64,000 bases of DNA from an uncultured Paracoccaceae bacterium (GTDB taxonomy: Bacteria > Pseudomonadota > Alphaproteobacteria > Rhodobacterales > Rhodobacteraceae): positions 98,103-162,102 of the forward strand of contig CAMFGW010000003.1 in the NCBI GenBank assembly GCA_945952025.1, in the 5' to 3' direction. Position numbers and translations under genes: made by a program. The notes beneath the pieces were generated by a model, which was given only the letters and a program-made list of their open reading frames with translations, had not been told where the DNA came from and made no database searches. Numbering within the stretch: position 1 is the first letter of the stretch; the number at the start of each line of letters is the position of its first letter. Shown here one piece after another: positions 1-32,796 of this stretch.

Positions 1-186
1 CCCACGGCCAGCGTCGGCGTGGGCTTCGGGTCGGGCGGCCAGACGGCTGTCGGGGTCGGCATGACCTTCGGCTCGGCAAGCTACCCGCCGCCCACCCCGG
101 CTGAGGCCTATGCGACCTGCGTGCGCCAGAAATCCGGCCAGCCGCCCAAGCGGCCCTATGCTTCACAAATGACAGGACAGCCCTGA
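1..186 (+). CDS. C-terminal fragment of an unidentified protein
   Basis: The window opens inside a reading frame that runs for 61 codons to a TGA one base before the sdhB start. The visible part is rich in Gly, Ser and Thr ([20 protein letters not shown]) and ends in a Pro- and Lys-containing tail. This fits the end of a small secreted or membrane-associated protein, but no family can be named. The one-base gap to sdhB suggests the two are cotranscribed. The start lies outside the window. Confidence 0.6.
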
Positions 187-187
187 G

Positions 188-964
188 ATGGTCCAGTTCA
201 CGCTTCCCAAGAACTCGAAAGTCCGCGTCGGCAAGACCTGGCCGCGGCCCGAGGGCAAGAACGTCCGCAAGTTCAAGATCTACCGCTGGGACCCGGACAC
301 GGGCGACAATCCCCGGGTCGACACCTATTTCCTGGACATGGACAAGACCGGGCCCATGGTCCTGGACGCGCTCATCAAGATCAAGAACGAGGTCGATCCG
401 ACCCTGACCTTCCGGCGGTCCTGCCGCGAGGGGATCTGCGGGTCCTGCGCCATGAACATCGACGGGATCAACACGCTCGCCTGCATCTACGGCCTTGATG
501 AGGTCGAGGGCGACGTGAAAATCTTTCCGCTGCCCCACATGCATGTCGTCAAGGACCTGGTGCCAGACCTGTCGCTCTTCTACGCCCAGCACGCCGCGAT
601 CATGCCCTGGCTCGAGACCAAGACCCATGTGCCGGAACGCGAATGGCGCCAGTCGATCGAGGACCGCAAGAAGCTGGACGGCGTCTATGAATGCGTCATG
701 TGCGCCTGCTGCTCGACCTCGTGCCCGAGCTACTGGTGGAACTCGGATCGCTATCTGGGGCCGGCCGCACTTCTGCACGCCTACCGCTGGATCGAGGACA
801 GCCGCGACGAGGCGACGGGCGAGCGGCTTGACCACCTCGAGGATCCGTTCCGGCTCTACCGCTGCCATACGATCATGAACTGCACCAAGACCTGCCCCAA
901 GGGGCTGAACCCGGCGAAGGCCATCGCCTCGATCAAGAAGATGATGGTCGACCGGCTGATGTAG
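188..964 (+). CDS. sdhB: Succinate dehydrogenase iron-sulfur subunit
   Basis: This is the electron-transfer subunit of complex II. It passes electrons from the SdhA flavin to ubiquinone at the inner membrane, in the TCA cycle and respiratory chain. All cluster ligands are visible: the plant-type 2Fe-2S set (Cys79, 84, 87 and 99, motif CREGICGSC), the 4Fe-4S set (Cys169, 172, 175, then Cys179, motif [12 protein letters not shown]) and the 3Fe-4S ligands Cys226, Cys232 and Cys236 in [14 protein letters not shown]. At 258 residues it has the normal family length. sdhB is usually last in sdhCDAB; the upstream fragment here is not SdhA, so an extra small gene seems to sit between sdhA and sdhB. 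Confidence 0.98.
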
Positions 965-974
965 GGGCGCCCCG

Positions 975-1169
975 GTGCCCCTTCTTCTTCTGCTGCTGTT
1001 GGTCGGGTTCCTGCTCTACCAGTGGTGGTCGCGGCGGGGCTCGACGCTGACGCGGCTTTGCCGCTGGCGGCAGGCCGCGCCGGGGGAGTGGCAGTGTGTC
1101 GCCTGCGGGGCGCGGTTGCCGTCGGCCTCCTCGCCCCGGGACTGCCTGAACCCTGCGCTGTCACCCTGA
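975..1169 (+). CDS. Small single-pass membrane protein, function unknown
   Basis: A 64-residue frame starting at GTG. It opens with a strongly hydrophobic segment (about residues 2-15, LLLLLLLVGFLLYQWW), then a basic stretch and a CVAC pair that could bind a metal or form a disulfide. It lies 10 bp after sdhB and 15 bp before the next gene in the same direction, so it is probably cotranscribed. Neither the family nor the function is recognised, and the evidence for coding is its position and membrane-protein composition. Confidence 0.5.
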   Translation: MPLLLLLLLVGFLLYQWWSRRGSTLTRLCRWRQAAPGEWQCVACGARLPSASSPRDCLNPALSP

Positions 1170-1184
1170 CCAGAAGGTCCGCCC

Positions 1185-2048
1185 ATGAAGCCCCAGCACC
1201 CCGAAACCGCCGCCCCGGATGATGCCGATGCGCGCCGCGCCGTGGCGCCGGTCGTGTGCTATCCGGCCGATTCCGTGGCGCGGCCCGATAGGGCGGTCCT
1301 GGCGCGGCTCAGGACCGGGCTGACGCTCACCGACCGCATCACCGTGCCCCCGCGCGAGGCGCGCGCCTTCCGGGTGCCCAGGGGACATGTCTTTCACATC
1401 CTCAGCCACGAGGGGCCGCAGGTCGGCGATCTGAACCTGTGGAATGCCGCCGATCTGGGCGAGAGGTTCTATTCCGGCAAGACCCGCGCGCTGCATGGCA
1501 CGCACCTGTCGACGGGCGACCGAATGTGGTCGAGCTTGCCCCGTCTGCGGCCTCTGGCGACGATCATCGGCGACAGCCTGGACTGGTATGGGTTCGACGC
1601 GCATGGCTGTTCGGTCCATGACGTGATCGGCACGCGCTGCGATCCCTTTACGCACCGGCTTCTGTCGGGGGACGATTACCACCATTGCTGCCATTCGAAC
1701 CTGACGCGCGCGCTTGCGGCCGAGACGGGCCTGTCCCTGGCCGAGGCAGAGGCTCATGTGCATGACGTGCTCAACGTCTTCATGTGCACCGGCTTCTCGC
1801 GCGAGACGGGGCAATATGTGATGAAGGCCAGCCCCGTGCGCCCCGGCGACCGGCTGGAGTTTCTGGCCGACATGGATCTTCTGGGGGCGCTGTCGGCCTG
1901 TCCGGGGGGCGATTGTTCGTCGGAACATTCCTCTGACGTGGCCGTCTGCCACCCGCTGGTGGTCGAGGTCTTCCGCCCGGCCGAAGGTGCGCTTCAGGGT
2001 TGGCCCTGGGTCGGGCCCAACGCCTATGACCGGACGCACGGCGCCTGA
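1185..2048 (+). CDS. DUF1989 / urea carboxylase-associated family protein
   Basis: A 287-residue protein of the DUF1989 family, whose members are often encoded beside urea carboxylase or aminomethyltransferase-type genes. Their chemistry is not settled. Family hallmarks seen are the HFLS-like HILSHEGPQVGDLNLWN block, the conserved HCCHSNL segment and the CPGGDCS motif near the C-terminus; the Cys and His residues suggest a metal site. The ATG follows a purine-rich AGAAGG. No urea carboxylase gene is adjacent, so a nitrogen-metabolism role rests on the family alone, though purine and ureide genes lie elsewhere in the window. Confidence 0.85.
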   Translation: MKPQHPETAAPDDADARRAVAPVVCYPADSVARPDRAVLARLRTGLTLTDRITVPPREARAFRVPRGHVFHILSHEGPQVGDLNLWNAADLGERFYSGKTRALHGTHLSTGDRMWSSLPRLRPLATIIGDSLDWYGFDAHGCSVHDVIGTRCDPFTHRLLSGDDYHHCCHSNLTRALAAETGLSLAEAEAHVHDVLNVFMCTGFSRETGQYVMKASPVRPGDRLEFLADMDLLGALSACPGGDCSSEHSSDVAVCHPLVVEVFRPAEGALQGWPWVGPNAYDRTHGA

Positions 2049-2060
2049 CCGGGGCATTTC

Positions 2061-2288
2061 GGCCCGGGTGGCAGGGGCCGTTGACCCTGCCATGCGAAGG
2101 CTTTGCCTTTTGTCCCCGCCGATGGCCCAAAGGCCATCGGCCAGCGCCTGCCCCGCCATCGGCGGGCGCTATGCGCCCACCGGGGCAGGCGCTGGCCTTT
2201 GTGGGTTCAGGACATCAGCGGTCCAGCGGAACCGTTTCGCTGCGGGCGAGGAAACGCGATGCGGTTCCTTTTCCCGCCCGGCCCGGCG
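2061..2288 (+). repeat. Structured intergenic repeat, copy 1
   Basis: First of three related copies (others at 11980-12211 and 32567-32796), filling the gap between two convergent genes. It holds consecutive inverted repeats. H1 is GGCAGGG/CCCTGCC (2070-2076, 2085-2091). H2 is a perfect 10 bp stem with a CAAA loop (2118-2127, 2132-2141). H3 is a perfect 17 bp stem (2139-2155, 2181-2197) enclosing an inner 6 bp stem (2164-2169, 2173-2178). H4 is CGTTTC/GAAACG (2233-2238, 2251-2256). The distance from H1 to H2 is exactly 26 nt in all copies. No terminal inverted repeats or target-site duplication are evident. Function unknown. Confidence 0.85.
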
Positions 2289-2297
2289 ACGGGCGCC

Positions 2298-3617
2298 TCA
2301 GGCCGTGACGTAGTGCAGCCCGCTGAAGGTCCGCCGCCAGTCCGCGACTTCGGGCGCAAGGGCCGCCGGGTCGTTCGAGCGAAGCGCCTGGGCGATCAGC
2401 CGAGCCATGCGGGGCGCGTCAGCCTCGGTCACGCCCCGGCGCACCAGTTCCGGCGTGCCGATCCGAAGCCCGTTCAGGTCGCCCATCACTTCGGCGATCG
2501 GCAGGCCGATGCCGCAGGCAAGGAACCCCGCCTGCCGCAGCGTCTTTGACGCCGCCTGACCGCCGCCGAAGGCTGCGGCTTCCAGCGCGAACTGGTGCGA
2601 TTCGGTCGCGCCCTTCGGTCCGGCGAAAAGCGGCATCCCCTCGGCGGCCAGTGCCCCCGCCAGCGCCTTCGCGACGGAGATCATCTTGGCCGCATAGGCC
2701 TGCCCCATGTCGCGCCAATCCAGAAGCGATAGGGCGAGCGCCGCCACACGGCCCGCATCGAAGTTCGCGGTCATCCCCGGAAAGGCAATGCGGTCGATCC
2801 GCTCGGCGATGGCCTGGTCGCGCGTCACGATCAGCCCGCCAGCCGGGCCGCCAAGGCTCTTGTAGGTCGACATGGTCATCAGGTGCGCGCCCTCGTCGAG
2901 CGGGTTCGGCCAGGCCTTGCCGGCAATGATGCCGCACTGGTGCGCCGCGTCGAATAGGACATGCGCGCCCACCTGATCGGCGATAGCGCGGATGGCGCGG
3001 ACCGGGTGGGGGTGCAGGTTCAGCGAGCCGCCGATGGTGATGATGCGGGGGCGGACGCGCCTTGCCAGCGCCTCCAGCGCCGCAAGGTCGACGGTGTAGC
3101 CGTCGGCGTCGACCGGGGCCGCGTGCGTCGTCAGCCCGTAAAGCCCCGCGCAACCCGCCGCATGGTGGGTGACGTGGCCCCCGACCGAGCCCGGGGGCGC
3201 GATGATCGCGTCGCCGGGTTTGGCCAGCGCCATGAAGCCGTAAAGGTTCGCCATGGCGCCGGAAAAGACCCGCACCTCGGCATAGGTCGCGGCAAAGACC
3301 TCGCAGGCGAGTTGGGTGGCGATGACCTCGATTTCCTCGATCGCCTCGAGCCCCATTTCGTACTTGTCGCCGGGATGGCCGAGCGAGGGGCGGGTGCCGA
3401 GCCCGCGCGCCTGGGCTGCCTCGGCGCGCGGCGACATGACGTTTGTCGCCGGGTTCAGGTTGAAGCAGTCGCGGTCGTGGGTTTGCAGGTTCTGGACGAT
3501 CATCGCCTCGATCCGGTCGGCGACACGGGGGGACGGCGCCCCGGCGGTCTCGGCCGCGATGCGGTCGATCAGCGCGCGCGGGCCTTTCGCGGCCCAGGGA
3601 AGTGCGTAACGGTTCAT
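2298..3617 (-). CDS. Serine hydroxymethyltransferase-like PLP enzyme
   Basis: A 439-residue fold-type I PLP enzyme related to GlyA. The Schiff-base lysine lies in [13 protein letters not shown], matching TTTHKTLRGPRGG of true SHMT, and [11 protein letters not shown] matches the DMAHIAGLVA cofactor loop. The usual substrate motif YAEGYPGKRYYGG is replaced by [17 protein letters not shown], and the SAYPR segment reads SLNLHP. Folate-dependent SHMT activity is therefore doubtful; another beta-hydroxy amino acid or related substrate is possible. It overlaps deoD by 4 bp and is its downstream operon partner. Confidence 0.75.
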
Positions 3618-4321
3618 CTCGCAAGCCCCGCAGTGAGTGCGATTTCCACCATGTCGCCGAACGACCGTTCGCGGTCTTCCGCCGGCAGCGCCTCGTGCGT
3701 CAGGAGGTGGTCGGAAATGGTCAGGACCGCGAGTGCACGGGCGCCGTGGCGGGCGGCGACAGCGTAAAGCTCGGCCGCCTCCATCTCGACGCAGAGGCAG
3801 CGGTGGCGTTGCAGGACCTCGGTCAGGTCGGGGCGTTCGTCATAGAAGACGTCGGAGGAATAGATGCCGCCGACATGGGTGCGCGCGCCCTTCGCCCGCG
3901 CCGCCGTCACCGCAGCCTCGAGCAGGCCATAGTCGGCGGCGGGCGCGAAGTTCAACTCGCGGAAGATGCCCTTCGAGGGGGTGGAGAGCGTCGAAGAGGT
4001 CATGGCGATGACAATGTCGCGGACCTTGATGTCGGGCTGCATGGCGCCGGCCGAGCCGATGCGGATCAGGGTCTTGGCGCCATAGTCGCGGATCAGCTCG
4101 TTGGCATAGATCGACATCGAAGCCATGCCCATGCCAGAGCCATGGATCGTCACGCGCTTGCCCTTCCAGGTGCCGGTATAGCCCAGCATCCCCCGCACCT
4201 GATTGACGCACACCGCATCCTTCAGGAAGGTTTCCGCCGCCCAGCGCGCCCGGTAGGGGTCGCCGGGCAAGAGCACGGTTTCGGCGATCTCGCCGGGCTT
4301 GGCGCCGATATGGACGGTCAT
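3614..4321 (-). CDS. deoD: Purine-nucleoside phosphorylase, DeoD type
   Basis: A cytosolic hexameric-type PNP that splits purine (deoxy)nucleosides with phosphate to a free base and (deoxy)ribose 1-phosphate. Family marks are the N-terminal HIGA with LLPGDPYRA, the GSGMGMASM phosphate and base loop, [11 protein letters not shown] for ribose binding, and ISDHLL, which carries the catalytic Asp. At 235 residues it is full length. It heads an operon with the SHMT-like gene (ATGA overlap). A BMP-type nucleoside transporter and ureide-degradation genes elsewhere in the window fit a purine salvage and catabolism theme. Confidence 0.95.
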
Positions 4322-4463
4322 CTGGGCCTCCTTGGTCTGGTGAGACTAGCCGGGGGGCGGCGGAAGGCAAGTGGCAAGGAGGCGCTTGCCGCCCACGACT
4401 GACCGGGGTTGTGCCCCTGCTTCCCGGCGCTTATGCGCGGTGGGCTGATACCCGGGGGACGCC

Positions 4464-4760
4464 ATGAGCGACGACGATTATGTCTATGACGAAGCGACCG
4501 GCGAATGGCGGCCGGCCTCGGCGCTTGCGGCAGAGGCGGCTGCGGCCCGAGCGACGCGGGATGCGGCGGGCAATCTGCTGGCTGATGGCGATCAGGTGGT
4601 GCTGGTCAAGGACCTGAAGGTCAAGGGCACCTCGACCACGCTCAAGCAGGGCACGGTGATCCGCTCGATCCGCCTGACCGACACCCCCGAGGAGATCGAC
4701 TGCCGTCACGACACGATCAAGGGGCTCGTGTTGCGCACCGAGTTCGTGCGCAAGCGGTAG
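4464..4760 (+). CDS. PhnA C-terminal domain protein (YjdM-like)
   Basis: A 98-residue acidic protein. Residues about 40-98 match the PhnA/YjdM C-terminal domain (DGDQVVLVKDLKVKG, then a strand-rich stretch ending GLVLRTEFVRKR). YjdM proteins of typical length carry an N-terminal zinc ribbon. Here the N-terminal 40 residues lack the paired cysteines and are Ala- and Glu-rich, so the zinc site is absent. Despite the old name, the family is not an established phosphonate enzyme. The gene appears monocistronic and converges with ecm. Confidence 0.8.
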   Translation: MSDDDYVYDEATGEWRPASALAAEAAAARATRDAAGNLLADGDQVVLVKDLKVKGTSTTLKQGTVIRSIRLTDTPEEIDCRHDTIKGLVLRTEFVRKR

Positions 4761-4793
4761 GCCGCCCCTCAGGCCGCCCCTCAGGCCGCCCCT
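4760..4793 (+). repeat. 12-bp tandem repeat between convergent genes
   Basis: The unit GGCCGCCCCTCA occurs in two full copies plus a partial third, starting at the last base of the phnA-like stop codon and running into the end of ecm. It is one of several 11-12 bp tandem arrays at gene boundaries in this window. Confidence 0.8.
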
Positions 4794-6777
4794 AGGCAGC
4801 CTGCGCCGGGTCGGCCAGCGCCACGATGTCGGCCATGATGCGGTTCAGCTCGAAATCCTTGGGCGTGTAGACGCGCGCGATGCCGGCCTTGCGGAGGGCG
4901 GCGGCGTCTTCGTCCGGGATGATGCCGCCGACCACGACGGGGATGTGGGCAAGGCCCGCGGCCTTCATGCGCTCCATCACCTCGGCCAGAAGCGGCAGGT
5001 GGCTGCCGGACAGGATCGACAGGCCGACGACATGGGCGCCCTCGGCCTCGGCCCGTTCGACGATTTCGGCGGGGGTCAGGCGGATGCCGTCGTAGGTGAT
5101 GGCCATGCCGCAGTCGCGGGCGCGGGCGGCGATCTGTTCGGCGCCGTTCGAATGGCCGTCAAGGCCGGGCTTGCCGACAAGGAAGGTCAGCCGGCGGCCA
5201 AGCCGGGTCGAGGCGCGGTCGACGGCGGCGCGCAGGTCGTCCAGGCCCTCGGTCCGGTTCGAGGGGCTTTTCGCAACGCCGGTCGGGCCGCGATATTCGC
5301 CGTGGACCTGGCGCATGACGCCGGCCCATTCGCCGGTCGTAACCCCGGCCTTCGCAGCGGCAACCGAGGCGGGCATGACGTTTTCGCCCTTTTCCGCCGC
5401 CTGTTTCAGGGCCGCGAGCGCCGCCGTCACCGCCGCCGCGTCGCGCCCCTTGCGCCAGGCGGTCAGGCGGGCGATCTGGTCAGCCTCGACCGCCGGGTCA
5501 ACCGTCAGGATGGCGCCGTCGCCCGCCGTCAGGGGCGAAGGCTCGCCCGCCTGCCAGCGGTTGACGCCGACCACCACCGTCTCGTTCGCCTCGATCCGGG
5601 CAATGCGGGCGGCGTTCGCCTCGACCAGGCGCGCCTTCATGTATTCGATGGCGGCGATGGCGCCGCCCATGTCGTCCAGGACCTTCAGCTCTGCCCGCGC
5701 GCCGTCCTTCAGTTCGGCCACCTTGCGCTCGATTGCCGGATTGCCGTCGAAGAGGTCATCGAACTCCAGAAGGTCAGTCTCGTAGGCCAGGATCTGCTGC
5801 ATCCGAAGCGACCATTGCTGGTCCCAGGGGCGCGGAAGCCCCAGCGCCTCGTTCCAGGCCGGAAGCTGCACCGCGCGGGCGCGGGCGTTTTTCGACAGCG
5901 TGACGGCAAGCATTTCCAGAAGGATGCGGTAGACGTTGTTTTCCGGCTGCTGTTCGGTCAGGCCCAGCGAGTTGACCTGCACGCCGTAACGGAAGCGGCG
6001 GAAACGTTCGTCGGCGATGCCGTAGCGGTCGCGGCAGATCTCGTCCCAAAGCTCGGTGAAGGCGCGCATCTTGCACAGTTCGGTCACGAAGCGGACGCCC
6101 GCGTTCACGAAGAAGCTGATGCGCCCGACCATCGCCGGGAAGTCCTTGTCCGCCACCTTGCCCTTCAGGTCGTCCAGAACCGCGATGCCGGTCGCAAGCG
6201 CGAAGGCCAGTTCCTGTTCCGGCGTCGCACCAGCCTCTTGCAGGTGGTAGGAACAGACGTTCATCGGGTTCCATTTCGGCAGGGTCTTCGCCGTATAGGC
6301 CGCCACGTCGGTGATCATCCTCAGCGACGGTTTCGGCGGGCAGATGTAGGTCCCGCGCGAGAGGTATTCCTTGATGATGTCGTTCTGGACCGTGCCCTGC
6401 AGCGCCGAGATGTCCGCGCCCTGTTCTTCGGCCACCGCGACATAGAGCGCCAGGAGCCAGGGCGCGGTCGCGTTGATGGTCATCGAGGTGTTCATCTGCT
6501 CAAGCGGGATATCCGCGAACAGCGCGCGCATGTCGCCCAGATGGCTGACCGGCACGCCCACCTTGCCGACCTCGCCCCGTGCGCGGGGGTCGTCGCTGTC
6601 ATAGCCGGTCTGCGTGGGCAGGTCGAAGGCGACCGACAGGCCGGTCTGCCCCTTGGCGAGGTTGGCGCGATAGAGCGCGTTCGACTTTTCCGCCGTCGAG
6701 TGGCCGGCATAGGTGCGGAAGAGCCAGGGCTTTTCGCTGGTCGTTACAGCGGGGACGGCGGCGGGGGCGCTGGTCAT
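4792..6777 (-). CDS. ecm: Ethylmalonyl-CoA mutase
   Basis: A coenzyme B12-dependent mutase converting (2R)-ethylmalonyl-CoA to methylsuccinyl-CoA in the ethylmalonyl-CoA pathway for C2 assimilation. Residues about 15-530 are the acyl-CoA mutase barrel (WLFRTYAGHSTAEKSN, VAFDLPTQTGYDSD). The C-terminal 140 residues are the B12-binding domain with the DxHxxG-type motif in PGLDGHSNGAEQ and GLSILSGSH. A single 661-residue chain with both domains is normal for Ecm/MeaA, unlike two-subunit methylmalonyl-CoA mutase. The presence of ccr 1.7 kb away supports Ecm over a generic mutase. Confidence 0.95.
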   Translation of the reverse strand: MTSAPAAVPAVTTSEKPWLFRTYAGHSTAEKSNALYRANLAKGQTGLSVAFDLPTQTGYDSDDPRARGEVGKVGVPVSHLGDMRALFADIPLEQMNTSMTINATAPWLLALYVAVAEEQGADISALQGTVQNDIIKEYLSRGTYICPPKPSLRMITDVAAYTAKTLPKWNPMNVCSYHLQEAGATPEQELAFALATGIAVLDDLKGKVADKDFPAMVGRISFFVNAGVRFVTELCKMRAFTELWDEICRDRYGIADERFRRFRYGVQVNSLGLTEQQPENNVYRILLEMLAVTLSKNARARAVQLPAWNEALGLPRPWDQQWSLRMQQILAYETDLLEFDDLFDGNPAIERKVAELKDGARAELKVLDDMGGAIAAIEYMKARLVEANAARIARIEANETVVVGVNRWQAGEPSPLTAGDGAILTVDPAVEADQIARLTAWRKGRDAAAVTAALAALKQAAEKGENVMPASVAAAKAGVTTGEWAGVMRQVHGEYRGPTGVAKSPSNRTEGLDDLRAAVDRASTRLGRRLTFLVGKPGLDGHSNGAEQIAARARDCGMAITYDGIRLTPAEIVERAEAEGAHVVGLSILSGSHLPLLAEVMERMKAAGLAHIPVVVGGIIPDEDAAALRKAGIARVYTPKDFELNRIMADIVALADPAQAA

Positions 6778-6923
6778 CGGACGCTCCTTCGGGGGCGAAA
6801 CAATCTTTCGTTGGCAAAGGGATATTCGAACGATCCTGCCGGGTCAATTCGCTGCGTTGCGGCATCGGCGGCCGAAAACGGCCCGAGGCTTGGGATTTTG
6901 CCCGGCCCGTGGCATTCAGGGCC

Positions 6924-8330
6924 ATGTTCCGGACGGTCACGCTGCCCCTTTGGCTTCTTGCCCTGATTCTCGCCTTCGCGGCGGTGGCCTTCTTTTCCCA
7001 TTTCCTCTTCCCGTCCGTCCGCTGGTTCTTCCGCGGCCGGATGGAGCGTCTGGTCGGGCGGCTGAACGCGCGGCTCGACCGGCCGATCCAGCCCTTCAAG
7101 CTGATGGAACGCCCCGACATGATCGTGCGGCTGACCTACGACCCCAAGGTCTACGAGACGGTCCATGACGAGGCGCAGGCGACGGGCCAGCCGGAAACCG
7201 TGGTCCTGGAACGCGCGCGGCGCTATGCGGCGGAAATCGTGCCCCGCTTTTCGGCGCGCTTCTATTTCACCTGGGGCATCCGCCTGGCGCGCTGGTTTTC
7301 GCGGCTGATCTACCGGGTCGAGCTGGACGAGAGCAAGCTAGCGCCGATCGACCCGGGCGCGACCGTGGTCTTCGTGATGAACCACCGCTCGAACATGGAT
7401 TACGTGCTGGTGACCTATCTCGCCGCGCAGCGCTCCGCACTCAGCTATGCGGTCGGCGAATGGGCGCGGGTCTGGCCCCTGTCGGGGCTGATCCGGTCGA
7501 TGGGCGCCTATTTCATCCGCCGGCGCTCGGACCTGCCGCTTTATCGCCGGGTCCTGTCGCGCTATGTGCAGATGGCAACGGCCGAAGGCGTGACGCAGGC
7601 GATCTTTCCCGAGGGCGGCCTGTCGCTGGACGGGCGGACGGGCGTGCCGAAGCTGGGACTTCTGTCCTACATCGTGCAGACGCCGCGTGATGGGGCGAGG
7701 GATGTGGTCTTTGTGCCCGTCTCGCTCGGCTATGACCGGGTGGTCGAGGATCGCGTCCTTGTCGCCGCGCGTGCCGAGGGGACGCGGCGGTTTCGCGCGC
7801 CCATCCTGCAGATCGCGGCCTTCGTCCTGCGCCACCTCTGGCGCGCGGCGCTGGGCCGGTTTCGCGGCTTCGGCGATGCGGTGGTGCGGTTCGGGACGCC
7901 CATCTCGCTGACCGCGTTCGAGCGGGGGCAGGACGGGGACGTGACGCGCGCGCTTGCGGGGCGGCTGATGGCAGAGATCACGGCGAACATTCCAGTCCTG
8001 TCGGTGCCGCTCGTCTCTGCCGCCTGGGGGGTGGAGGCCCAGACCGACCGCGCGGCGCTGATCGGGCAGGGCACGGCGCTGGCCGAAAGGCTGGCGGCGG
8101 CGGGGGGCGCGCTCCACCTGCCCGAGGGGGGAATCGCGGCCGCCGTCGACCGCACGCTCAGCATCTTCGCCATGCGCCACATGATCGACCGGGACGGCGA
8201 GCAGGTCATACTGCGCGACGCGGCGCGGCCCCTGGTCGACTTCTACGCGGCGTCGGCCTGGCAGATTCTGGATGCAGGCGCAGAAAAAACTGCGCATAGT
8301 CACGGGGATGATGGGGTCGAAACCGTCTGA
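6924..8330 (+). CDS. Membrane-associated glycerol-3-phosphate acyltransferase-type enzyme
   Basis: A 468-residue PlsB/LPLAT-superfamily acyltransferase. An N-terminal hydrophobic segment (about residues 6-26) anchors it. The catalytic HX4D motif is NHRSNMDYVLV, motif III is FPEGGLSLDG and motif IV is VFVPVSLGYDRV, the VPVSxxYDRV form typical of glycerol-3-phosphate or DHAP acyltransferases. Likely role: first acylation in phospholipid synthesis. An upstream in-frame extension is open, but the ATG at 6924 places the membrane anchor at the N-terminus. It lies between ecm (divergent) and ccr (112 bp downstream, same strand). Confidence 0.85.
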   Translation: MFRTVTLPLWLLALILAFAAVAFFSHFLFPSVRWFFRGRMERLVGRLNARLDRPIQPFKLMERPDMIVRLTYDPKVYETVHDEAQATGQPETVVLERARRYAAEIVPRFSARFYFTWGIRLARWFSRLIYRVELDESKLAPIDPGATVVFVMNHRSNMDYVLVTYLAAQRSALSYAVGEWARVWPLSGLIRSMGAYFIRRRSDLPLYRRVLSRYVQMATAEGVTQAIFPEGGLSLDGRTGVPKLGLLSYIVQTPRDGARDVVFVPVSLGYDRVVEDRVLVAARAEGTRRFRAPILQIAAFVLRHLWRAALGRFRGFGDAVVRFGTPISLTAFERGQDGDVTRALAGRLMAEITANIPVLSVPLVSAAWGVEAQTDRAALIGQGTALAERLAAAGGALHLPEGGIAAAVDRTLSIFAMRHMIDRDGEQVILRDAARPLVDFYAASAWQILDAGAEKTAHSHGDDGVETV

Positions 8331-8442
8331 CTCGAAACAATATTACAAACGCAGCCGTCCCAGGATTGAAATGTTGCGCGGCCCCTTGTAATTCTACCGG
8401 GAAGCCCGCATAGATTCTGCACTGCGGCAAAAGGAGAGGCCG

Positions 8443-9735
8443 ATGGCTTTGGACACGCATCCGGGAATTGCCCCCTACGACGCGCCGGTCAAGGATCTGT
8501 ACGAGTTGGGCGAAATGCCCCCGCTCGGCCATGTGCCGAAGCAGATGTATGCCTGGGCCATCCGCCGCGAACGCCATGGCGAGCCCGACGCGGCCATGCA
8601 GGTCGAGGTGGTCGATACCTGGAAGCTCGATTCGAACGAGGTCCTGGTTCTGGTGATGGCGGCGGGCGTCAACTACAACGGCGTCTGGGCAGCGCTCGGC
8701 GTGCCGATCAGCCCCTTCGACGGCCACAAGCAGCCCTACCACATCGCCGGTTCCGACGCCTCTGGCATCGTCTGGGCGGTGGGCGACAAGGTGAAACGTT
8801 GGAAGGTGGGCGACGAGGTGGTCGTCCATTGCAACCAGGACGACGGCGACGACGAGGAATGCAACGGCGGCGACCCGATGTTCTCGCCCACCCAGCGGAT
8901 CTGGGGGTATGAGACGCCGGACGGGTCCTTCAGCCAGTTCACCCGCGTGCAGTCCCAGCAACTCATGCCGCGGCCGAAGCACCTGACCTGGGAAGAATCG
9001 GCCTGCTACACGCTGACCCTTGCGACCGCCTACCGGATGCTGTTCGGCCACCAGCCGCACGACCTGAAGCCCGGCCAGAACGTGCTTGTGTGGGGTTCGT
9101 CGGGCGGTCTGGGGTCCTATGCGATCCAGCTCATCAACACCGCGGGCGCCAATGCGATCGGCGTCATCTCGGACGAATCGAAGCGCGATTTCGTCATGGG
9201 GCTGGGCGCCAAGGGCGTCATCAACCGCAACGACTTCAAATGCTGGGGGCAGCTGCCCACGGTCAACAGCCAGGAATACAACGACTGGCTGAAAGAGGCG
9301 CGCCGGTTCGGCAAGGCGATCTGGGACATCACCGGCAAGGGCGTGAGTGTCGACATGGTGTTCGAGCACCCCGGCGAGGCGACCTTCCCGGTTTCCAGCC
9401 TGGTCTGCAAGAAGGGCGGCATGGTCGTCATCTGCGCCGGCACCAGCGGCTTCAACTGCACCTTCGACGTGCGCTACATGTGGATGCACCAGAAGCGCCT
9501 GCAGGGCAGCCACTTCGCCCACCTCAAGCAGGCGTCGGCGGCCAACAAGCTGATGATCGAGCGCAGGCTCGACCCCTGCATGTCCGAGGTATTCCCCTGG
9601 GCCGAGATCCCGCAGGCGCACATGCTGATGCGCACCAACAAGCACAAGCCGGGGAACATGGCCGTCCTGGTGCAGGCGCCGCGCACCGGGCTCAGGACGT
9701 TCGAGGATGCGCTGGAGGCCGGTCGCGAGCGCTGA
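8443..9735 (+). CDS. ccr: Crotonyl-CoA carboxylase/reductase
   Basis: A zinc-less MDR-superfamily enzyme performing NADPH-dependent reductive carboxylation of crotonyl-CoA to (2S)-ethylmalonyl-CoA, the defining step of the ethylmalonyl-CoA pathway. Family segments are the N-terminal YELGEMPPLGHVPKQMYAW, AAGVNYNGVWAALG, the Rossmann loop VWGSSGGLGSYAIQL, and a C-terminal part ending with NKHKPGNMAVLVQAP. Its 430 residues are the normal length. An AAAGGAGAG ribosome site sits just before the ATG, and a terminator-like hairpin follows at 9764-9791. Confidence 0.97.
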   Translation: MALDTHPGIAPYDAPVKDLYELGEMPPLGHVPKQMYAWAIRRERHGEPDAAMQVEVVDTWKLDSNEVLVLVMAAGVNYNGVWAALGVPISPFDGHKQPYHIAGSDASGIVWAVGDKVKRWKVGDEVVVHCNQDDGDDEECNGGDPMFSPTQRIWGYETPDGSFSQFTRVQSQQLMPRPKHLTWEESACYTLTLATAYRMLFGHQPHDLKPGQNVLVWGSSGGLGSYAIQLINTAGANAIGVISDESKRDFVMGLGAKGVINRNDFKCWGQLPTVNSQEYNDWLKEARRFGKAIWDITGKGVSVDMVFEHPGEATFPVSSLVCKKGGMVVICAGTSGFNCTFDVRYMWMHQKRLQGSHFAHLKQASAANKLMIERRLDPCMSEVFPWAEIPQAHMLMRTNKHKPGNMAVLVQAPRTGLRTFEDALEAGRER

Positions 9736-9763
9736 GGGGCGCCAGACTTGGGAAAAAATGGGG

Positions 9764-9791
9764 CGCCGCAGGCAAAAGCCGCGGCGTCCTT
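9764..9791 (+). terminator. Terminator-like hairpin after ccr
   Basis: CGCCGC, bulged A, GGC, AAAA loop, GCC, GCGGCG gives a 9 bp stem with one bulge, followed by TCCTTT. It lies 29 bp after the ccr stop. The T-run is short, so termination may be weak. Confidence 0.55.
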
Positions 9792-9887
9792 TGCGTTTGG
9801 TGAAGGATTTTTCCGCAAATTGGCCATGGGCCTTCCTCAATTCGCCTTCAGGTTGAGAAAAGCTTCATCAGTCAACGAGGGATCGTC

Positions 9888-10091
9888 ATGCGCTACGACT
9901 GGATCATGGACGTGCTGACCGACCTGCGGAATTTCTCGGCCGTGAACGGCCTCACCGACCTGTCGCGCGAGCTGGATGCGACCTTGACGATCGCCGCCAA
10001 GGACATTTCGCGGGCGGCCGGGGTGCCGATCCTGGCCTACACGAACACCGATCTGCCCACGCCGGAAAAGCGCGGCGGAACGCTGGGGTAG
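9888..10091 (+). CDS. Small uncharacterised protein
   Basis: A 67-residue protein without membrane segments, starting MRYDWIMDVLTDLRNFSAVNGL, with helical character and a Pro-rich tail. It is preceded by CGAGGGATCGTC, with an AGGG-type ribosome site at useful spacing. The composition resembles a real cytosolic protein, but I cannot assign a family. It sits 48 bp before the helicase gene on the same strand. Confidence 0.6.
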   Translation: MRYDWIMDVLTDLRNFSAVNGLTDLSRELDATLTIAAKDISRAAGVPILAYTNTDLPTPEKRGGTLG

Positions 10092-10139
10092 GGGCGGGCC
10101 TACTGGCACTCCGCCAAGCGCCGGGATAGGGTCCGGCGC

Positions 10140-11672
10140 ATGTCGGCCGGCCTTCCCACCCTTTCGCACGATCAGGCCGAAGCCTGGGATCGCGTCGTCG
10201 ATCTGTTGCGCGGCGCGGGCATCGACATCGACGAGGGCACGATCTTGCCGGCGGCCGAGGGGGCGGCGTCGGTCCTTGCGGTCGTGGGCAAGGCAGGGTC
10301 GGGCAAGACGCTGCTGCTCGCCGGCCTGATGAAGGCGCTGGAGGCTGCGGGGATCGACTTGATTACCGGCGACTACGAAGGCAAGCGGCGCAAGGACCGG
10401 CGCACGCTCGCGGTCCTGGCACCGACGAACAAGGCGGCGAGCGTGTTGCGCAGCCGGGGCGTGCCGGCGACCACCATTCACCGCATCCTCTACACGCCCG
10501 TCTACGACCCCGATTACGAAAAGATCGCCGACTGGCTTGCCGGTTCGGGCGACCGGCCGGAGATCGAGGGCTTGAGCGATCTGGCGCTCGACCGGGCCAA
10601 GGCCTTCTACGAGGCCGCCAAGTCGATCCCCGGCGCGCTTGCGGCGGCGGGCCTGCGCGGGTCGGACTTCATCCTGGGCTGGAAGCGGCGCGAGGACCCC
10701 CTGGATGTGGGCTTCATCGACGAAGCCTCGATGCTGGACGAGCGCCAGTTCGAGGATCTGCGCGAAATCTTTCCGACGCTCGTCCTTTTCGGCGACCCGG
10801 CCCAGCTAGCCCCCGTCGGCCAGTCGGGCGAGATGGTCTTTGACCGCCTGCCGGACGCGCGCAAGCTGGTCCTGCACCGCGTCCACCGGCAAGCCGAGGA
10901 CAACCCGATCCTGGACCTGGCCCATGCGCTGGGTGACGAGGCGCTGACCTTCCCCGAGTTCGAGGCGATGGTGACTGACGCCGCGCGCCGGGACGACCGT
11001 GTCGTCTGGGCCGAACGCATGGATGCGGGGCTGATGGCGCGGTCCCCGGCCCTTGTCTGGCGCAACCAGACCCGCGTGCGGCTGATTCAGGCCTTCCGCG
11101 CGGCGCACAATGCCCCTGCCGACGCGCTTCTGCCGGGCGAGCCCTTGATCTGCGACGGGATCGAACTGCCCTTGAAGCACCGCAAGAAGCGCATCGACCT
11201 GGAGGCGCGGGGCCTGATCAAGGGGGCGCAGGTCATCTACCTGGGCCCCGGATCGAAGCCCGGATTTTCGCGGCTGCATGTGGTGGGTGCCGAGGACCCG
11301 CGCGTATCGGCCGCGTCGATCGTCAAGATCGAGCTGCCGGGCGAGGAGGAGCCCTTCATCCCCTATGCCGCGCGGATGGGGGCTGCCTTCCTGCATGGCG
11401 CCGCCGTGACGATCCACAAGGCGCAAGGCTCGCAATGGCCCGAGGTTCAGGTCTTTGCGCCCGATCTTTACGTCGCGGCGCAGATGGGCCGCACCGAGGC
11501 CGGCATCCCGCTCTGGAAGCGGCTCGCGTATGTGGCGATCACGCGGGCCCAGCACCGGCTCTACTGGGTGGTGCGCAGCCGGCTTGGCCGGCCCGAGGCA
11601 AGGCTTGGCATCGACGACCTGCCGAAGGGGGCGGCGCCCCTGACGCTCGATGCGACCGAACCGGACCTCTGA
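10140..11672 (+). CDS. SF1 DNA helicase, RecD/Dda-like
   Basis: A 510-residue AAA/SF1 helicase. Walker A is VVGKAGSGKTLLL (about residues 48-60), the APTNKAAS motif Ia follows, Walker B is IDEASML, and motif III appears as LFGDPAQLAPVG. The C-terminal UvrD-like part has TIHKAQGSQWPEV (motif V) and YVAITRAQHRLYWV (motif VI). It resembles free-standing RecD-like, exonuclease V alpha-family helicases rather than RecBCD RecD, with no recB or recC nearby. Likely role: DNA unwinding in repair or recombination. Confidence 0.88.
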   Translation: MSAGLPTLSHDQAEAWDRVVDLLRGAGIDIDEGTILPAAEGAASVLAVVGKAGSGKTLLLAGLMKALEAAGIDLITGDYEGKRRKDRRTLAVLAPTNKAASVLRSRGVPATTIHRILYTPVYDPDYEKIADWLAGSGDRPEIEGLSDLALDRAKAFYEAAKSIPGALAAAGLRGSDFILGWKRREDPLDVGFIDEASMLDERQFEDLREIFPTLVLFGDPAQLAPVGQSGEMVFDRLPDARKLVLHRVHRQAEDNPILDLAHALGDEALTFPEFEAMVTDAARRDDRVVWAERMDAGLMARSPALVWRNQTRVRLIQAFRAAHNAPADALLPGEPLICDGIELPLKHRKKRIDLEARGLIKGAQVIYLGPGSKPGFSRLHVVGAEDPRVSAASIVKIELPGEEEPFIPYAARMGAAFLHGAAVTIHKAQGSQWPEVQVFAPDLYVAAQMGRTEAGIPLWKRLAYVAITRAQHRLYWVVRSRLGRPEARLGIDDLPKGAAPLTLDATEPDL

Positions 11673-11728
11673 CCCGGTTTCCGTCGGGGTGAAAAGCCCC
11701 TAGGGTCGGCGCTAAAGGGGAATCGTCC

Positions 11729-11965
11729 ATGCGCTGCGTCTTCGTCCAGTTCCGCTGCAATCCCGGCAAGACCTACGAGGTCGCGGATGCGATCTACGAC
11801 CGGGAAGTCGTGTCCGAGCTTTATTCGACCTCGGGCGAATATGACCTGATGGCAAAGGTCTACATTCCGGAAGAGGAAGACGTGGGCCGCTACCTGTCGG
11901 ACCGGCTCTTCGACATTCCGGGGATCGTGCGCACGCTGACGACGATGACCTACCGCGCCTTCTAG
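11729..11965 (+). CDS. Stand-alone Lrp/AsnC ligand-binding (RAM) domain protein
   Basis: A 78-residue protein consisting only of the RAM effector-binding domain of Lrp/AsnC regulators (FVQFRCNPGKTYEVADAI, SGEYDLMAKV, the LTTMTYRAF ending). There is no helix-turn-helix, so it cannot bind DNA alone. Such stand-alone RAM proteins oligomerise and may bind amino acids or modulate full-length Lrp partners. AAGGGG precedes the ATG. The gene is followed by repeat copy 2. Confidence 0.88.
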   Translation: MRCVFVQFRCNPGKTYEVADAIYDREVVSELYSTSGEYDLMAKVYIPEEEDVGRYLSDRLFDIPGIVRTLTTMTYRAF

Positions 11966-11979
11966 GTCGCGTGCCCTTG

Positions 11980-12211
11980 CCGGACCGGCTGGCAGGGGCA
12001 AGTGACCCTGCCATACGAAGGCCTCTCCCCTTGTCCCCGCCGGTGGCCCAAAGGCCACTGGCCAGCGCCCGCCCCGCCATCGGCGGGCGCTTCGCGCCCA
12101 CCGGGGCAGGCGCCGGCCTTTGATGGTGAGTGACATGAGCGGCCCAGCGGAGGCGTTTCCACACGGGCGAGGGAAACGCGGGTCGCGTTTCCTGATCCCG
12201 CCCGGCCCGGC
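11980..12211 (+). repeat. Structured intergenic repeat, copy 2
   Basis: Same element as at 2061-2288, again between convergent genes and in the same orientation. H1, H2 and H3 are kept. H2 carries a G-C pair where copy 1 has A-T, plus one G-T pair. The H3 stem has two A/C oppositions, which would be G-U wobbles in a minus-strand transcript. At the 3' side GGAAACG (12172-12178) can pair either upstream (12154-12160) or, within a perfect 9 bp stem, downstream (12172-12180 with 12184-12192). Confidence 0.85.
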
Positions 12212-12245
12212 TTTTCAGCGCAAGCGAACGGTAACCCTGCCACAC

Positions 12246-13010
12246 CTACCGCTTCAGCGCCCGGAAACCGGCCGAGGCGGCCCAGCCGGCGAAGGCGGCG
12301 ATGGCCAGCGCGAGCGCGCCGTAGATCGCGGGCTGGGTGCGCGACAGGCGGAACAGCCAGCGTTCAAGGCCGACCTTGCGGACGTAGATGCTGCGCTCGT
12401 CCAGCGCCACGACCTGCTTGTTGCGCGTGAGGAAGATGCGGGTCTTGTAGACGCCCTCGACAAGGTTCGCGGGCAGCCGGATGTCGGTGCGGAAAAGCGT
12501 GTCCTGCGCCAGCCGGACCGAGGCGTCCTGAAGGGCGTAGAAGCCCTGCTTCTGGCGGATGCGGATCAGGGCTGTTGTGAAGTTGTGGGAATACATGAGC
12601 GTGCGTGCGACGCTCATCGACCGGAGCTCTCGTGTAAAGGCGACGGAATAGCGGATGTCGTCGGTGTTCGAGATGATCTGCTCGAAAGGCCGCGTGGTGG
12701 CGATGGCGTAGAAGCTGGGCGCACTGTCGACCGTCACCGTGTCGGTATTGACCCAGATGCCAAGGACGCGCGACTTGCGCCGGACGTTGACCGGGAAAGA
12801 GGGGCCCTGCACCGTGATGATCACGTCGAGCGAGCTGTCCGTCGGCGGCGGCGCGTCGCGCGACACGGCGCCATAGATCAGAAGGTCGGACCCGTTGAAG
12901 TTCGCCGTGATCTCGATCCGGTCCTCGCTCAGGCCAGAGACGACCTTTTCCTCGGCCCCGAGCCAGGCGGGGACGGCGACAAGCGCGAGGGCGAGGACCA
13001 GCGCCCGCAT
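12246..13010 (-). CDS. TIGR02186-family membrane-anchored protein
   Basis: A 254-residue protein with a cleavable-looking signal peptide (about residues 1-19, MRALVLALALVAVPAWLGAE) and one C-terminal membrane helix (about 228-248). The middle is beta-rich (ITANFNGSDLLIYGAVSRDAPP). It matches the uncharacterised alphaproteobacterial family TIGR02186, which is regularly paired with a TauE/SafE permease, as here. The long upstream frame is not used: the ATG at 13010 overlaps the TauE stop and begins the signal peptide. A role as periplasmic partner of the exporter is inferred. Confidence 0.85.
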   Translation of the reverse strand: MRALVLALALVAVPAWLGAEEKVVSGLSEDRIEITANFNGSDLLIYGAVSRDAPPPTDSSLDVIITVQGPSFPVNVRRKSRVLGIWVNTDTVTVDSAPSFYAIATTRPFEQIISNTDDIRYSVAFTRELRSMSVARTLMYSHNFTTALIRIRQKQGFYALQDASVRLAQDTLFRTDIRLPANLVEGVYKTRIFLTRNKQVVALDERSIYVRKVGLERWLFRLSRTQPAIYGALALAIAAFAGWAASAGFRALKR

Positions 13011-13927
13011 CAGCCGCGCCCCACGGGGGCGAGCGAGTAAAGCTCGCCCGGCGTCAGCAGAAGGTCGAGCGCCAGCTTGCCGCAGACCAGAAGGACCAGA
13101 AGCGCCAGCAGGATGCGCAACTGTTCGGCCCTGAGCCTCAGCGCCAGTGCCGCGCCGATCTGGGCGCCGATGACGCCGCCAAGGATCAGAAGGACCGCCA
13201 GAAGGATGTCGACCGACTGATTGGTCAGCGCATGCATGAAAGTGGTGAAGCCGGTCACGAAGATGATCTGGAAGAGCGATGTGCCGATCACGACCTTGGT
13301 CGGCATGTTCAGAAGGTAGATCATCGCCGGGACCATGATGAAGCCGCCGCCGACGCCCATCACGGCGGCCAGGACGCCGACCCCGAAGCCGACCACGATC
13401 GGCGGAATTATGGAGATATAGAGACCCGAGGTGCGGAACTTCATCTTCAGTGGCAGCCGGTGGACCCACATGTGCTGGCTGCGCTTGACCGGCGCCACCG
13501 CGCGCTTGGCCCGCCTCAGGCTGCGGACGCTTTCCTGCAGCATCATGGCGCCCACGACCCCCAGGAAAAGGACGTAGGACAGCTGCACGAACAGGTCGAT
13601 CTGCCCCGACCGCGACAGCAGGTTGAAGAGCCAGATGCCCGCCGTCGACCCGGCGATACCCGCGACCATCAGCACGACCCCCATGCGGATGTCGACGGTC
13701 TTGCGCTTGAGGTGCGCAAGAACGCCCGAGATCGAGGAGGCGACGACCTGGTTGGCGCCGGTCGCGACCGCGACCGTCGGGGGGACACCCACGAAAAACA
13801 GCAGCGGCGTGATGATGAAGCCGCCGCCAACGCCGAACAGGCCCGACAGAATGCCGACAATGCCCCCGAGCCCGAAGAGCAGGAAGGCATTCACAGAAAC
13901 CTCGGCTATCGGCAGATAAATCTGCAT
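13010..13927 (-). CDS. TauE/SafE family sulfite exporter-like permease
   Basis: A 305-residue polytopic inner-membrane protein with the duplicated TauE/SafE signature, first half GIVGILSGLFGVGGGFIITPLL and second half GVGVLAAVMGVGGGFIMVPAMI. About eight hydrophobic segments are visible. The family exports sulfite, sulfoacetate or related organosulfur anions; the substrate here is unknown. It is translationally coupled to the TIGR02186 gene. Confidence 0.9.
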   Translation of the reverse strand: MQIYLPIAEVSVNAFLLFGLGGIVGILSGLFGVGGGFIITPLLFFVGVPPTVAVATGANQVVASSISGVLAHLKRKTVDIRMGVVLMVAGIAGSTAGIWLFNLLSRSGQIDLFVQLSYVLFLGVVGAMMLQESVRSLRRAKRAVAPVKRSQHMWVHRLPLKMKFRTSGLYISIIPPIVVGFGVGVLAAVMGVGGGFIMVPAMIYLLNMPTKVVIGTSLFQIIFVTGFTTFMHALTNQSVDILLAVLLILGGVIGAQIGAALALRLRAEQLRILLALLVLLVCGKLALDLLLTPGELYSLAPVGRG

Positions 13928-14106
13928 GCGACGACCTTCGCCCAGGGAGGGAAGCTTTTCGAGTGATGGGCCTTCGCGGCCCCACTGTCAAAGGGTCGGG
14001 CCGGGGTTTTTGGTCAAATCCCGGCGACTGGACCAGATTTTTCCGAAACTGGACTCATCGGGCGTAGCATCGGGGCGCAACATATGGATCGGCTTGGGAA
14101 ATCCCT

Positions 14107-14134
14107 GTGCCGCGCCCCGTGCCGCGCCCCGTGC
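14107..14134 (+). repeat. 12-bp tandem duplication
   Basis: GTGCCGCGCCCC twice in a row plus GTGC, ending at the base before the permease stop codon. The remaining spacer to TauE (13928-14106) shows no gene. Confidence 0.75.
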
Positions 14135-15103
14135 TCAACGTTCCTTCACATAGGGTTCGCCGCCAGCGCGCGGCGGGGTCGCCTTGCCGATGAATCCCGC
14201 CAGAACCACGACCGTCAGGATATAGGGCAGGGCGTCGAGCGCGGGCGAGGGGATGTCGAAACCGAAGGTCCGGGTGATGACATCGGGGCGCAGCGCGAAT
14301 GCCTGGAAGAAGCCGAAGAGGAGCGTGGCCCACAGCGCATACCAGGGTCGCCACTTGGCGAAGATCAGGGCAGCGAGCGCGATATAGCCGCGCCCCGCCG
14401 TCATCTCGCGCCCGAAGCCCGCTTGCAGGCCCGCCGCCATATAGGCGCCGGCAAGGCCGCAGAGGACGCCGGTGATCGCCACCGCCGAATAGCGCAGCCG
14501 GACGACCGAGATGCCGGCGGTATCGACCGAGGCGGGGTTTTCACCGACGGCGCGCAGCCGCAGCCCGTAGCGCGTGCGGTAGAGCACCCACCAGGTCAGG
14601 GGCACGCACAGAAGGCCCACATAGACCAGGATGGTATGGCCCGACAGGACCTCGGCGTAGAAGGGGCCGATGATCGGGATGGCCTTGGCGGCCTCGGCAC
14701 CCGGCAGGGTCAGCTCGCTGAAGCGGGCGGGACCGTCGAGCGGGGGCGTGCGGCCGCCCTGTCCGAAAAGTGCCTGGGCGATCAGGACGGTGATGCCGCT
14801 TGCGACGAAGTTGAGCGCCACGCCCGAGATCAGCTGGTTGCCGCGGAAGGTGATCGAGGCGACGCCGTGGATGCCCGCGAAGATCAGCGAGGCGCCGATC
14901 CCGACCAAGGTGCCCACCCAGACGTTGCCGGACAGGTAGGCGGCCGCGCCCGTCGCCATGGCGGCGACCAGCATCTTGCCCTCGAGCCCGATGTCGAAGA
15001 TGCCCGAGCGTTCGGAATAAAGCCCGGCAAGGCAGGCCAGCAGCAGGGGCGTCGCCAGCCGCAGGGTCGAATCGAGGATCTGAAGGAAGGTCGCGTAGTC
15101 CAT
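14135..15103 (-). CDS. BMP-type ABC transporter permease 2
   Basis: A 322-residue inner-membrane permease of the branched-chain/BMP transporter family. It has about eight to ten hydrophobic segments and conserved ATPLLLACLAGLYSERSGIFDIGLEGKML and GNQLISGVALNF blocks typical of the YufQ/NupQ type. It is the last gene of a four-gene operon (BMP protein, ATPase, permease 1, permease 2). The substrate class for these systems is purine nucleosides. Confidence 0.92.
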   Translation of the reverse strand: MDYATFLQILDSTLRLATPLLLACLAGLYSERSGIFDIGLEGKMLVAAMATGAAAYLSGNVWVGTLVGIGASLIFAGIHGVASITFRGNQLISGVALNFVASGITVLIAQALFGQGGRTPPLDGPARFSELTLPGAEAAKAIPIIGPFYAEVLSGHTILVYVGLLCVPLTWWVLYRTRYGLRLRAVGENPASVDTAGISVVRLRYSAVAITGVLCGLAGAYMAAGLQAGFGREMTAGRGYIALAALIFAKWRPWYALWATLLFGFFQAFALRPDVITRTFGFDIPSPALDALPYILTVVVLAGFIGKATPPRAGGEPYVKER

Positions 15104-17822: not shown

Positions 17823-17833
17823 GCCTTTTGGGC

Positions 17834-18823: not shown

Positions 18824-18987
18824 TGTGAACTCCCTGCGTGCGGTATGTCCGAAAGTGCGCGCGCGTGCGCCTTTCAGGATCGCGGCTGATTAGCGCCGAC
18901 GGGGGCAAAGGGGTCAACAGGATTCTTGGGGTGCCGGGCGGGACGTGGCGTGCGCTGGGCGAAAGGCCGCGCCAATGCAAGGGCTTG

Positions 18988-19404
18988 TCAGGGCAGGGGG
19001 CGGCTCAGGACCAGGGCGTCCGACGGTTCGGGCCCCTCGCGGTAGTAATTGCGCCTGAGGCCGACCTGGGTGAAGCCCATGGCCTGGTAAAGCGCACGGG
19101 CGGGGGTGTTCAGGGAATCGACTTCCAGAAAGACGGTGCGCGCGCCCCGGGTCGCGGCCGTGGCCAGGAACTGGCCGAGAAGGCTTCGCCCAAGGCCCTT
19201 GCGGCGGGCGTCGGGGGCGACGGCGATGGTCAGAAGCTCGGCTTCGTCCAGCGTCACCCGGCCGATCGCAAAGCCTTCCGGCGCGGCGATGGTCAGCGTG
19301 TCTGCGCGGGCAAGAAGGGCGCGGAACTCGGCTTCGGACCAGGGGCGCGGGTGCAGGAAGGCCTGCCCGTGCAGGCGGGCGAGGTCGGCGGGGTTCGGGC
19401 TCAC
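18988..19404 (-). CDS. rimI: Ribosomal-protein-alanine N-acetyltransferase
   Basis: A 138-residue GNAT acetyltransferase. The acetyl-CoA loop is VAPDARRKGLGRSLL, followed by FLEVDSLNTPARALYQAMGFTQ, the typical RimI end with an aromatic YY after the core. It overlaps tsaB by 4 bp; the tsaB-rimI pair is a common bacterial neighbourhood. RimI acetylates the N-terminus of ribosomal protein S18. Confidence 0.92.
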   Translation of the reverse strand: MSPNPADLARLHGQAFLHPRPWSEAEFRALLARADTLTIAAPEGFAIGRVTLDEAELLTIAVAPDARRKGLGRSLLGQFLATAATRGARTVFLEVDSLNTPARALYQAMGFTQVGLRRNYYREGPEPSDALVLSRPLP

Positions 19405-20628: not shown

Positions 20629-20727
20629 GGGCGATCTCCGACTGTATGACTCGGATATGCGGGGCGCGCGGCCCGAAGTCAAGGAAGGGGCGGCGGGGTG
20701 CTGCCGCCCATCGTCGGGCAGTCGGGC

Positions 20728-21009: not shown

Positions 21010-21053
21010 GGATGCGCTCCTTCGTCGTCGAGGGATTCCCTCTCTCGGGCGTG

Positions 21054-21101: not shown

Positions 21102-21172
21102 GTGACTGGGCCCAGGGTGACGTGGCGTCCGGCCGGGGCGAGCCCGGCGCCTGCCGCGCGGCGGTTCCGGCG

Positions 21173-32566: not shown

Positions 32567-32796
32567 GCCCCGGGTGGCAGGGGCCGTTGACCCTGCCACA
32601 GCGCAACGATGCCTGTTGTCCCGGCCGATGGCCCAAAGGCCATCGGCCAGCGCCCGCCCCGCCCTTGGCGGGCGCTTCGCGCCCACCGGGGCAGGCGCCG
32701 GCCTTCGACAGCTCATGACATGGGTGGTCCAGCGGTACCGTTCCCACGATGGTCGGGGGAGACGTATACGTTTCCTGATCCCGACCGGGCCCGGCG
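32567..32796 (+). repeat. Structured intergenic repeat, copy 3
   Basis: Third copy of the element described at 2061-2288. Same orientation and again between convergent genes (GAPDH-like and allA). H2 is identical to copy 1, while H3 shares its two A/C oppositions with copy 2. The distal stem appears as GGAGACGT/ACGTTTCC with one wobble. The remainder of the 287 bp gap is only short flanks. Confidence 0.85.

Follow-up and report, generated by a model that had tools for sequence, protein, structure and literature searches.

Four-hairpin intergenic repeats placed behind stop codons in a Rhodobacteraceae genome: a likely mobile family of probable transcript-end elements

Three copies of a structured repeat occur within a 64,000-nucleotide stretch of DNA from an uncultured Paracoccaceae bacterium (hereafter, the window), each between two converging genes. 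This arrangement raises the question of what the repeat is and why it lies there. A preliminary description of the window had proposed either a role at transcript ends or an element that survives only where insertion is harmless. All three copies were recovered, with ends agreeing to within 1–2 nt of those given earlier; they share the + strand (3/3) and lie between a + gene and a - gene that converge (3/3):

2061..2288, + strand: copy 1, with a DUF1989 gene (1185-2048, +) on its left and an SHMT-family gene (2298-3617, -) on its right
11982..12212, + strand: copy 2, with a 237-nt Lrp/AsnC-domain gene (11729-11965, +) on its left and an Alph_Pro_TM gene (12246-13010, -) on its right
32567..32796, + strand: copy 3, with a GAPDH-family gene (31562-32539, +) on its left and a ureidoglycolate-lyase-family gene (32826-33311, -) on its right

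Genes were called with a codon model trained on the long ORFs of the genome that holds the window (G000; 3.14 Mb, 79 contigs), and weakly supported calls were discarded where most of their length fell within a copy. By these calls the window has 9 convergent, 36 tandem, and 9 divergent gaps; one tandem gap of 544 nt (20629-21172) holds no called gene. The copy-bearing convergent gaps measure 249, 280, and 286 nt, and the other six (31, 11, 9, 61, 61, and 25 nt) are small and free of copies, as had been reported. Without the copies' own bases, convergent gaps make up about 6% of the intergenic bases of the window. A 20-mer from the core of the element matches three times in the window, against a mean of 0.2 and a maximum of 2 in 100 shuffles, and the predicted fold of copy 1 reaches -143.8 kcal/mol, compared with an average of -112.8 for shuffled sequences (z -6.6). 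The Rfam 15 covariance models gave no match in the window at gathering score, nor any at E<=1 at the element itself in six loci. Elsewhere, at L263:1882-1963 in genome G004, an Rfam DUF3800-VII RNA scores above the gathering threshold about 250 nt from a family element.

The unit is about 230 nt long, has a GC content of 0.72, and contains four hairpins whose order is fixed. Short complementary outer ends (5' GGYCNGGG, 3' CCC.GCC-like) enclose H1, a 25-nt spacer, H2, H3, a linker of about 44 nt, and H4. Among 103 aligned copies, from which those outside 215–265 nt had been filtered beforehand, length ranges from 217 to 250 nt with a median of 230. In copy 1, the hairpins are as follows:

2069..2092, + strand: H1, arms 2069-2076 / 2085-2092, with compensatory changes
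2118..2141, + strand: H2, arms 2118-2127 / 2132-2141, with compensatory changes
2139..2197, + strand: H3, a long stem (outer arms 2139-2155 / 2181-2197) with an inner hairpin (GGGCGC/GCGCCC)
2243..2280, + strand: H4, outer arms 2243-2254 / 2269-2280 (inverted repeat I8); the inner stem carries a T-run on its 3' side

The spacing between H1 and H2 is indeed identical in the three window copies, but it amounts to 25 nt between core arms rather than the 26 given earlier, the value depending on where the arms are cut. Because the 5' foot of H3 overlaps the 3' arm of H2, full H2 and full H3 are mutually exclusive. The ends of the unit are sharp; in 104 single copies, conservation falls off steeply 5' of -8, counted from TGGCAG, and 3' of +16 in the end motif. 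Of 18 short model matches inspected by eye, 15 have a shortened H3 and three reach a contig end.

The preliminary description had suggested that a covariance model be run against the whole genome and related Rhodobacterales. With a model built from 16 sequences, this search returned at least 148 matches in G000 at E<=1e-3 and at least 147 at E<=1e-4 (best 150 of 8527 candidates scored; model E-values are rough), and further matches in other Rhodobacteraceae genera. An independent pattern search of G000 gave 147 matches, compared with 8 for the reversed control. One search scored 40 of 299 candidates, and its counts are lower bounds. The true copy number probably exceeds the count, with 16 of 144 located copies and a further four without a locus at contig edges. 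Copies end contigs C4, C11, C36, C38, C40, C41, C43, C51, C52, C53, C60, C61, C69, C73, and C76, among others, which suggests that the repeat breaks the assembly.

Context was scored for 128 of the 148 matches, leaving out the four without a locus and the 16 at contig edges. The neighbours are convergent in 95 cases and tandem in 33; no copy lies in a divergent gap or inside a gene, and by estimated ends some reach up to 36 nt into the end of a gene. These copies occupy 86 distinct convergent and 30 distinct tandem gaps; if one sixth of gaps are divergent, the share seen in the window, the probability of finding none in 116 gaps is 6.5e-10. The claim that the repeats occur only between convergent genes is true of the window but not of the genome, where 33/128 copies (26%) are tandem.

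Distances to the flanking genes are short. For the 77 single copies in convergent gaps, the medians to the two stops are 14 and 11 nt, with 75/77 within 51 nt of the 5'-side stop and 72/77 within 53 nt of the 3'-side stop. For the 27 single copies in tandem gaps, the median distance is 9 nt from the upstream stop and 128 nt to the following start, and all 27 begin within 44 nt of the upstream stop, even where up to 700 nt are free downstream. The placement rule is therefore a position behind a stop codon, rather than convergent gaps alone. Since tandem copies hug the upstream stop despite free space, targeting or positive retention is called for, and survival where insertion is harmless does not suffice on its own. 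In tandem gaps the element favours neither strand, 18 copies pointing the same way as the genes and 15 the opposite way. Insertion oriented by replication was rejected, as neighbouring copies share a strand in 39 of 82 pairs and strand is not biased with respect to local GC skew. In convergent gaps, which leave little room, both transcripts would have to end in or traverse the element.

The family extends beyond G000. In a survey of the family Rhodobacteraceae, at least 34 of the 247 other genomes had matches at E<=1e-4, many of these being weak single matches, whereas a class-wide draw gave none in 189 other genomes, at least two of which belong to the same family (13 or 17 candidates scored per genome and strict filters in both). 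At E<=1e-4 and with 150 candidates scored per genome, there were at least 54 matches in G275, 42 in G233, 27 in G270, 15 in G003, 11 in G030, 4 in G004, 2 in G002, and 1 in G001. Congeners thus carry at least 1–15 matches at this threshold, against at least 148 in G000 at E<=1e-3. The copies examined, mostly the better-scoring ones, were 29/54 from G275, 25/42 from G233, 25/27 from G270, 5/11 from G030, and 5/15 from G003, together with all those of G004 (4), G002 (2), and G001 (1).

Elements of other Rhodobacteraceae genera have the same hairpin order and compensated stems, and the stem sequences are genome-specific around shared loops (up to 8 copies viewed per genome). Cells in which both partners have changed with pairing kept number 54 in the 16-row alignment, compared with 24 in shuffles, and 435 against 133 among 100 matches from 8 other genomes, the latter in an alignment fitted to the model and hence leaning towards it. 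In these 100 matches H1 is 98% paired, and 8/8 of its pairs are doubly changed. Context was assigned to 96 of them, after removal of the four weakest (E 7e-5 to 1e-3), which were kept in the covariation and G-U/A-C counts: 43 are convergent, 40 tandem, 8 divergent, and 5 at an edge. The divergent ones come from G233, which belongs to another genus (5/25), G270 (2/25), and G275 (1/29); for two of these eight, the call of a neighbouring gene is weak. The G233 copies, too, speak against a restriction to convergent gaps. A partly overlapping set of 43 loci comprised 15 convergent, 18 tandem, and 1 divergent copy, 3 overlapping a gene, and 6 at an edge. The 3'-end rule is strict in G000 and looser in other genomes. 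Two local observations concern single genomes: in G275, three family copies lie within 0.8 kb (L292:1501-2315), two on the + and one on the - strand, and in G003 the type-A copies (L069-L072) by eye show 20–30 nt of extra similarity past both ends.

Nine sites in G000, namely those of the first two window copies, four in L123, and three in L140, were compared with the congeners G001, G003, and G004. None of the whole-genome matches of G001 (at least 1) and G004 (at least 4) falls at these sites, seven of which were also read directly in both genomes. In G003, the copy is absent at six sites, two of them showing a clean gap of 46–49 nt and the rest another gene or neighbour; a close copy is present at two, once in the same and once in the opposite orientation, and the remaining site holds an element that shares plan and orientation but differs in sequence. 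The opposite case, L140:7011-7239 versus L070, is a single gap with a copy in opposite orientations in G000 and G003, arising either by in-place inversion or by two insertions. Copies come and go, given that congeners differ in presence at matching sites, and because most such sites lack them, copies of this kind are not essential. At some sites of G000 copies, relatives have a gene: G001 and G004 at window copy 1 and at C17:8512, and all three congeners at window copy 2 and C7:86708. Labelled by eye, the congener genes at window 2049-2297, window 11966-12245, and L123:5065-5393 are an aldo-keto-reductase-like gene, an SDR-like gene, and a small gene. Copies may mark scars of gene loss.

How the element moves was approached through its ends and its possible movers. 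Matches flanking 103 single copies at k = 2–8 lay within the shuffle range, and a MITE with target duplication was rejected for want of that duplication. The Y1/RAYT transposase family PF01797 had no match in G000 and was found in one of nine genomes searched (G275), with a control search positive in 5 of 14 named genomes; a RAYT-driven REP was thus set aside for G000. No coding version was seen downstream in the loci of the 20 of 144 copies that do not have both canonical ends. Carriage by plasmids or phages was likewise discounted, as plasmid and phage records gave no match, although records near G000 may be left out of these collections.

Stop-adjacent placement could arise by target choice alone, and a purely selfish, non-autonomous element might target DNA behind stops, for example terminator hairpins, with its hairpins kept for the movement of source copies and not for the host. 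This possibility deserves to be taken seriously, although we consider it unlikely. It would account for the sharp ends and absent target duplication, for the excess of matches in G000 over its congeners, and for the indifferent strand of neighbouring copies. It would also suit the 14 pairs of close neighbours, all of which are head to tail, 11 with a period of 243–248 nt and a related spacer. Local duplication was rejected as the origin of such pairs, since their members (5/14 measured; identity 0.74–0.81) are no more alike than random copies (median 0.805). Against a purely selfish element, no mobilising gene was identified, and the closest two of 103 aligned copies are 91% identical, with no recent movement visible, yet stems remain constrained on long terminal branches. 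The median nearest-neighbour identity is 0.87 and, judged by this measure, there appears to have been no very recent burst of movement. Changes per site on terminal branches come to 3.2 in stems and 10.6 in linkers, or 3.3 times less in stems, in a tree of the 103 of 124 end-complete copies that passed the length filter; misalignment of linkers would inflate their figure. The H1 and H3 stems have about 2 changes per site, H2 5.2, outer H4 6.1, and the outer ends, the least constrained region, 17. A closing pairing of both ends is therefore not supported as constrained. Stem constraint could nevertheless mirror constrained source copies instead of selection on each copy.

A second alternative is a DNA-level site at converging units, bound by gyrase, a nucleoid protein, or as a cruciform, that absorbs supercoiling and to which RNA is irrelevant. 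BIME-2 elements are linked to gyrase in E. coli, and this precedent, the orientation indifference, and the convergent preference all speak for such a site. However, 33/128 copies are tandem, and the G-U/A-C asymmetry, which runs in opposite directions in H1 and the outer H3 stem, suggests RNA; this leaves the DNA-level account rather improbable. In this post hoc test, pair-genome cases in relatives numbered 16 G-U and 5 A-C for H1, and 8 G-U and 25 A-C for the outer H3 stem; H2 was balanced (9 and 9), and the inner H3 stem almost balanced (8 and 11). Counted by cells, H1 and H2 together gave 52 G-U and 17 A-C. As an A-C cell is a G-U on the opposite strand, the asymmetry suits H1 in + RNA and H3 in - RNA. 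The even H2 count weakens this strand-split reading; in G000 alone H2 is again even (44 G-U, 38 A-C), and two base pairs contribute most of the excess in H3.

A hairpin followed by a T-run (at least three T in six) was found on the + strand of 54/103 copies and on the - strand of 2/103, compared with 2 and 1 in shuffles. About half of the copies have such a run behind H4, confined to the + strand, and at its place the 87 readable copies include 30 with TGAT and 32 with TTTT. A standard terminator scan flagged neither copy in window positions 1-20000. An ordinary intrinsic terminator family, in which H4 and its T-run end the + transcript, would explain the + strand excess over shuffles but is very improbable given the - strand count, the TGAT copies, and the 15 of 33 tandem copies that point the wrong way. 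The earlier suggestion of a transcript-end role fits the position at 3' ends, the absence of divergent copies in G000, the even split of tandem strands, and the constrained stems, but two-way termination by U-tracts is not supported, because the T-runs are confined to one strand. Structure-based protection of ends and blocking of read-through would thus be favoured over U-tract termination.

Several known repeat classes offer comparisons. REPs measure 20–40 bp and mostly bear a GTAG or CGTC tag, with convergent copies near both stops and tandem copies near the upstream stop (PMC3733652), and are tied to RAYT transposases (PMC2817692). The present element resembles REP/BIME repeats in being high-copy, palindromic, and intergenic, with the same stop-side layout in convergent and tandem gaps. 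It differs in its length of about 230 nt, its four unlike hairpins, its head-to-tail pairs, and the lack of a Y1 transposase in G000; by whole-copy density, neither tag is enriched (GTAG 1.35/kb versus 3.28/kb in the window; CGTC 4.64 versus 15.84). The element would work like an enterobacterial REP/BIME and is not a member of that group by size, tag, and RAYT tests. The CIR elements of Caulobacter, reportedly due to Chen and Shapiro in 2003, are likewise long alphaproteobacterial intergenic repeats. They are named as CcrM-associated in PMC10969869; in the present element, GANTC is not enriched (0.72/kb versus 0.83/kb in the window) and occurs in 16/103 copies. With MITEs the element shares shortness, multiple copies, no coding version seen, and short inverted ends, but it has neither target duplication nor an identified parent IS, and several internal hairpins in place of one terminal inverted repeat. 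Stable bacterial stem-loops in general favour convergent gaps and the first 50 bp after a stop (PMC1590033); the places are the same, but there the hairpins are unrelated and here they form one homologous family. HRC-8-4 of Rhodobacterales is set apart by its description as a cco-operon motif (PMC8632094). No such repeat was recognised in the Rhodobacteraceae literature searched, which excluded most subscription journals. The placement itself is thus known behaviour, and the element is not a known one to us or in the literature examined.

On the best reading, the repeats likely form a mobile, REP-like family that serves as a transcript-end element irrespective of orientation. In this model, to which we assign a probability of about 0.5, transcripts entering from one side would fold in the left part of the element and those entering from the other side in its right part. 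The element would spread as a non-autonomous mobile element and land at, or be retained at, 3' ends, where copies may block antisense read-through between converging genes and shield mRNA 3' ends from exonucleases. REPs of E. coli protect against exonuclease. A more specific version, a new class of mobile two-way module in which the left part is selected as + RNA and the right part as - RNA, insertion behind stops proceeds free of RAYT, and lineages of Rhodobacteraceae rewrite the stems while keeping the four-hairpin plan, is put forward only tentatively and is more doubtful than not.

If the transcript-end reading is right, about 1% of G000 (148 x 230 nt of 3.14 Mb) would be a repeat set at gene ends to within tens of bases. 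The question would then be what moves a 230-nt structured element with neither a RAYT nor target duplication, and the genome, with over 100 copies as natural replicates, would lend itself to testing if structured repeats insulate genes that converge.
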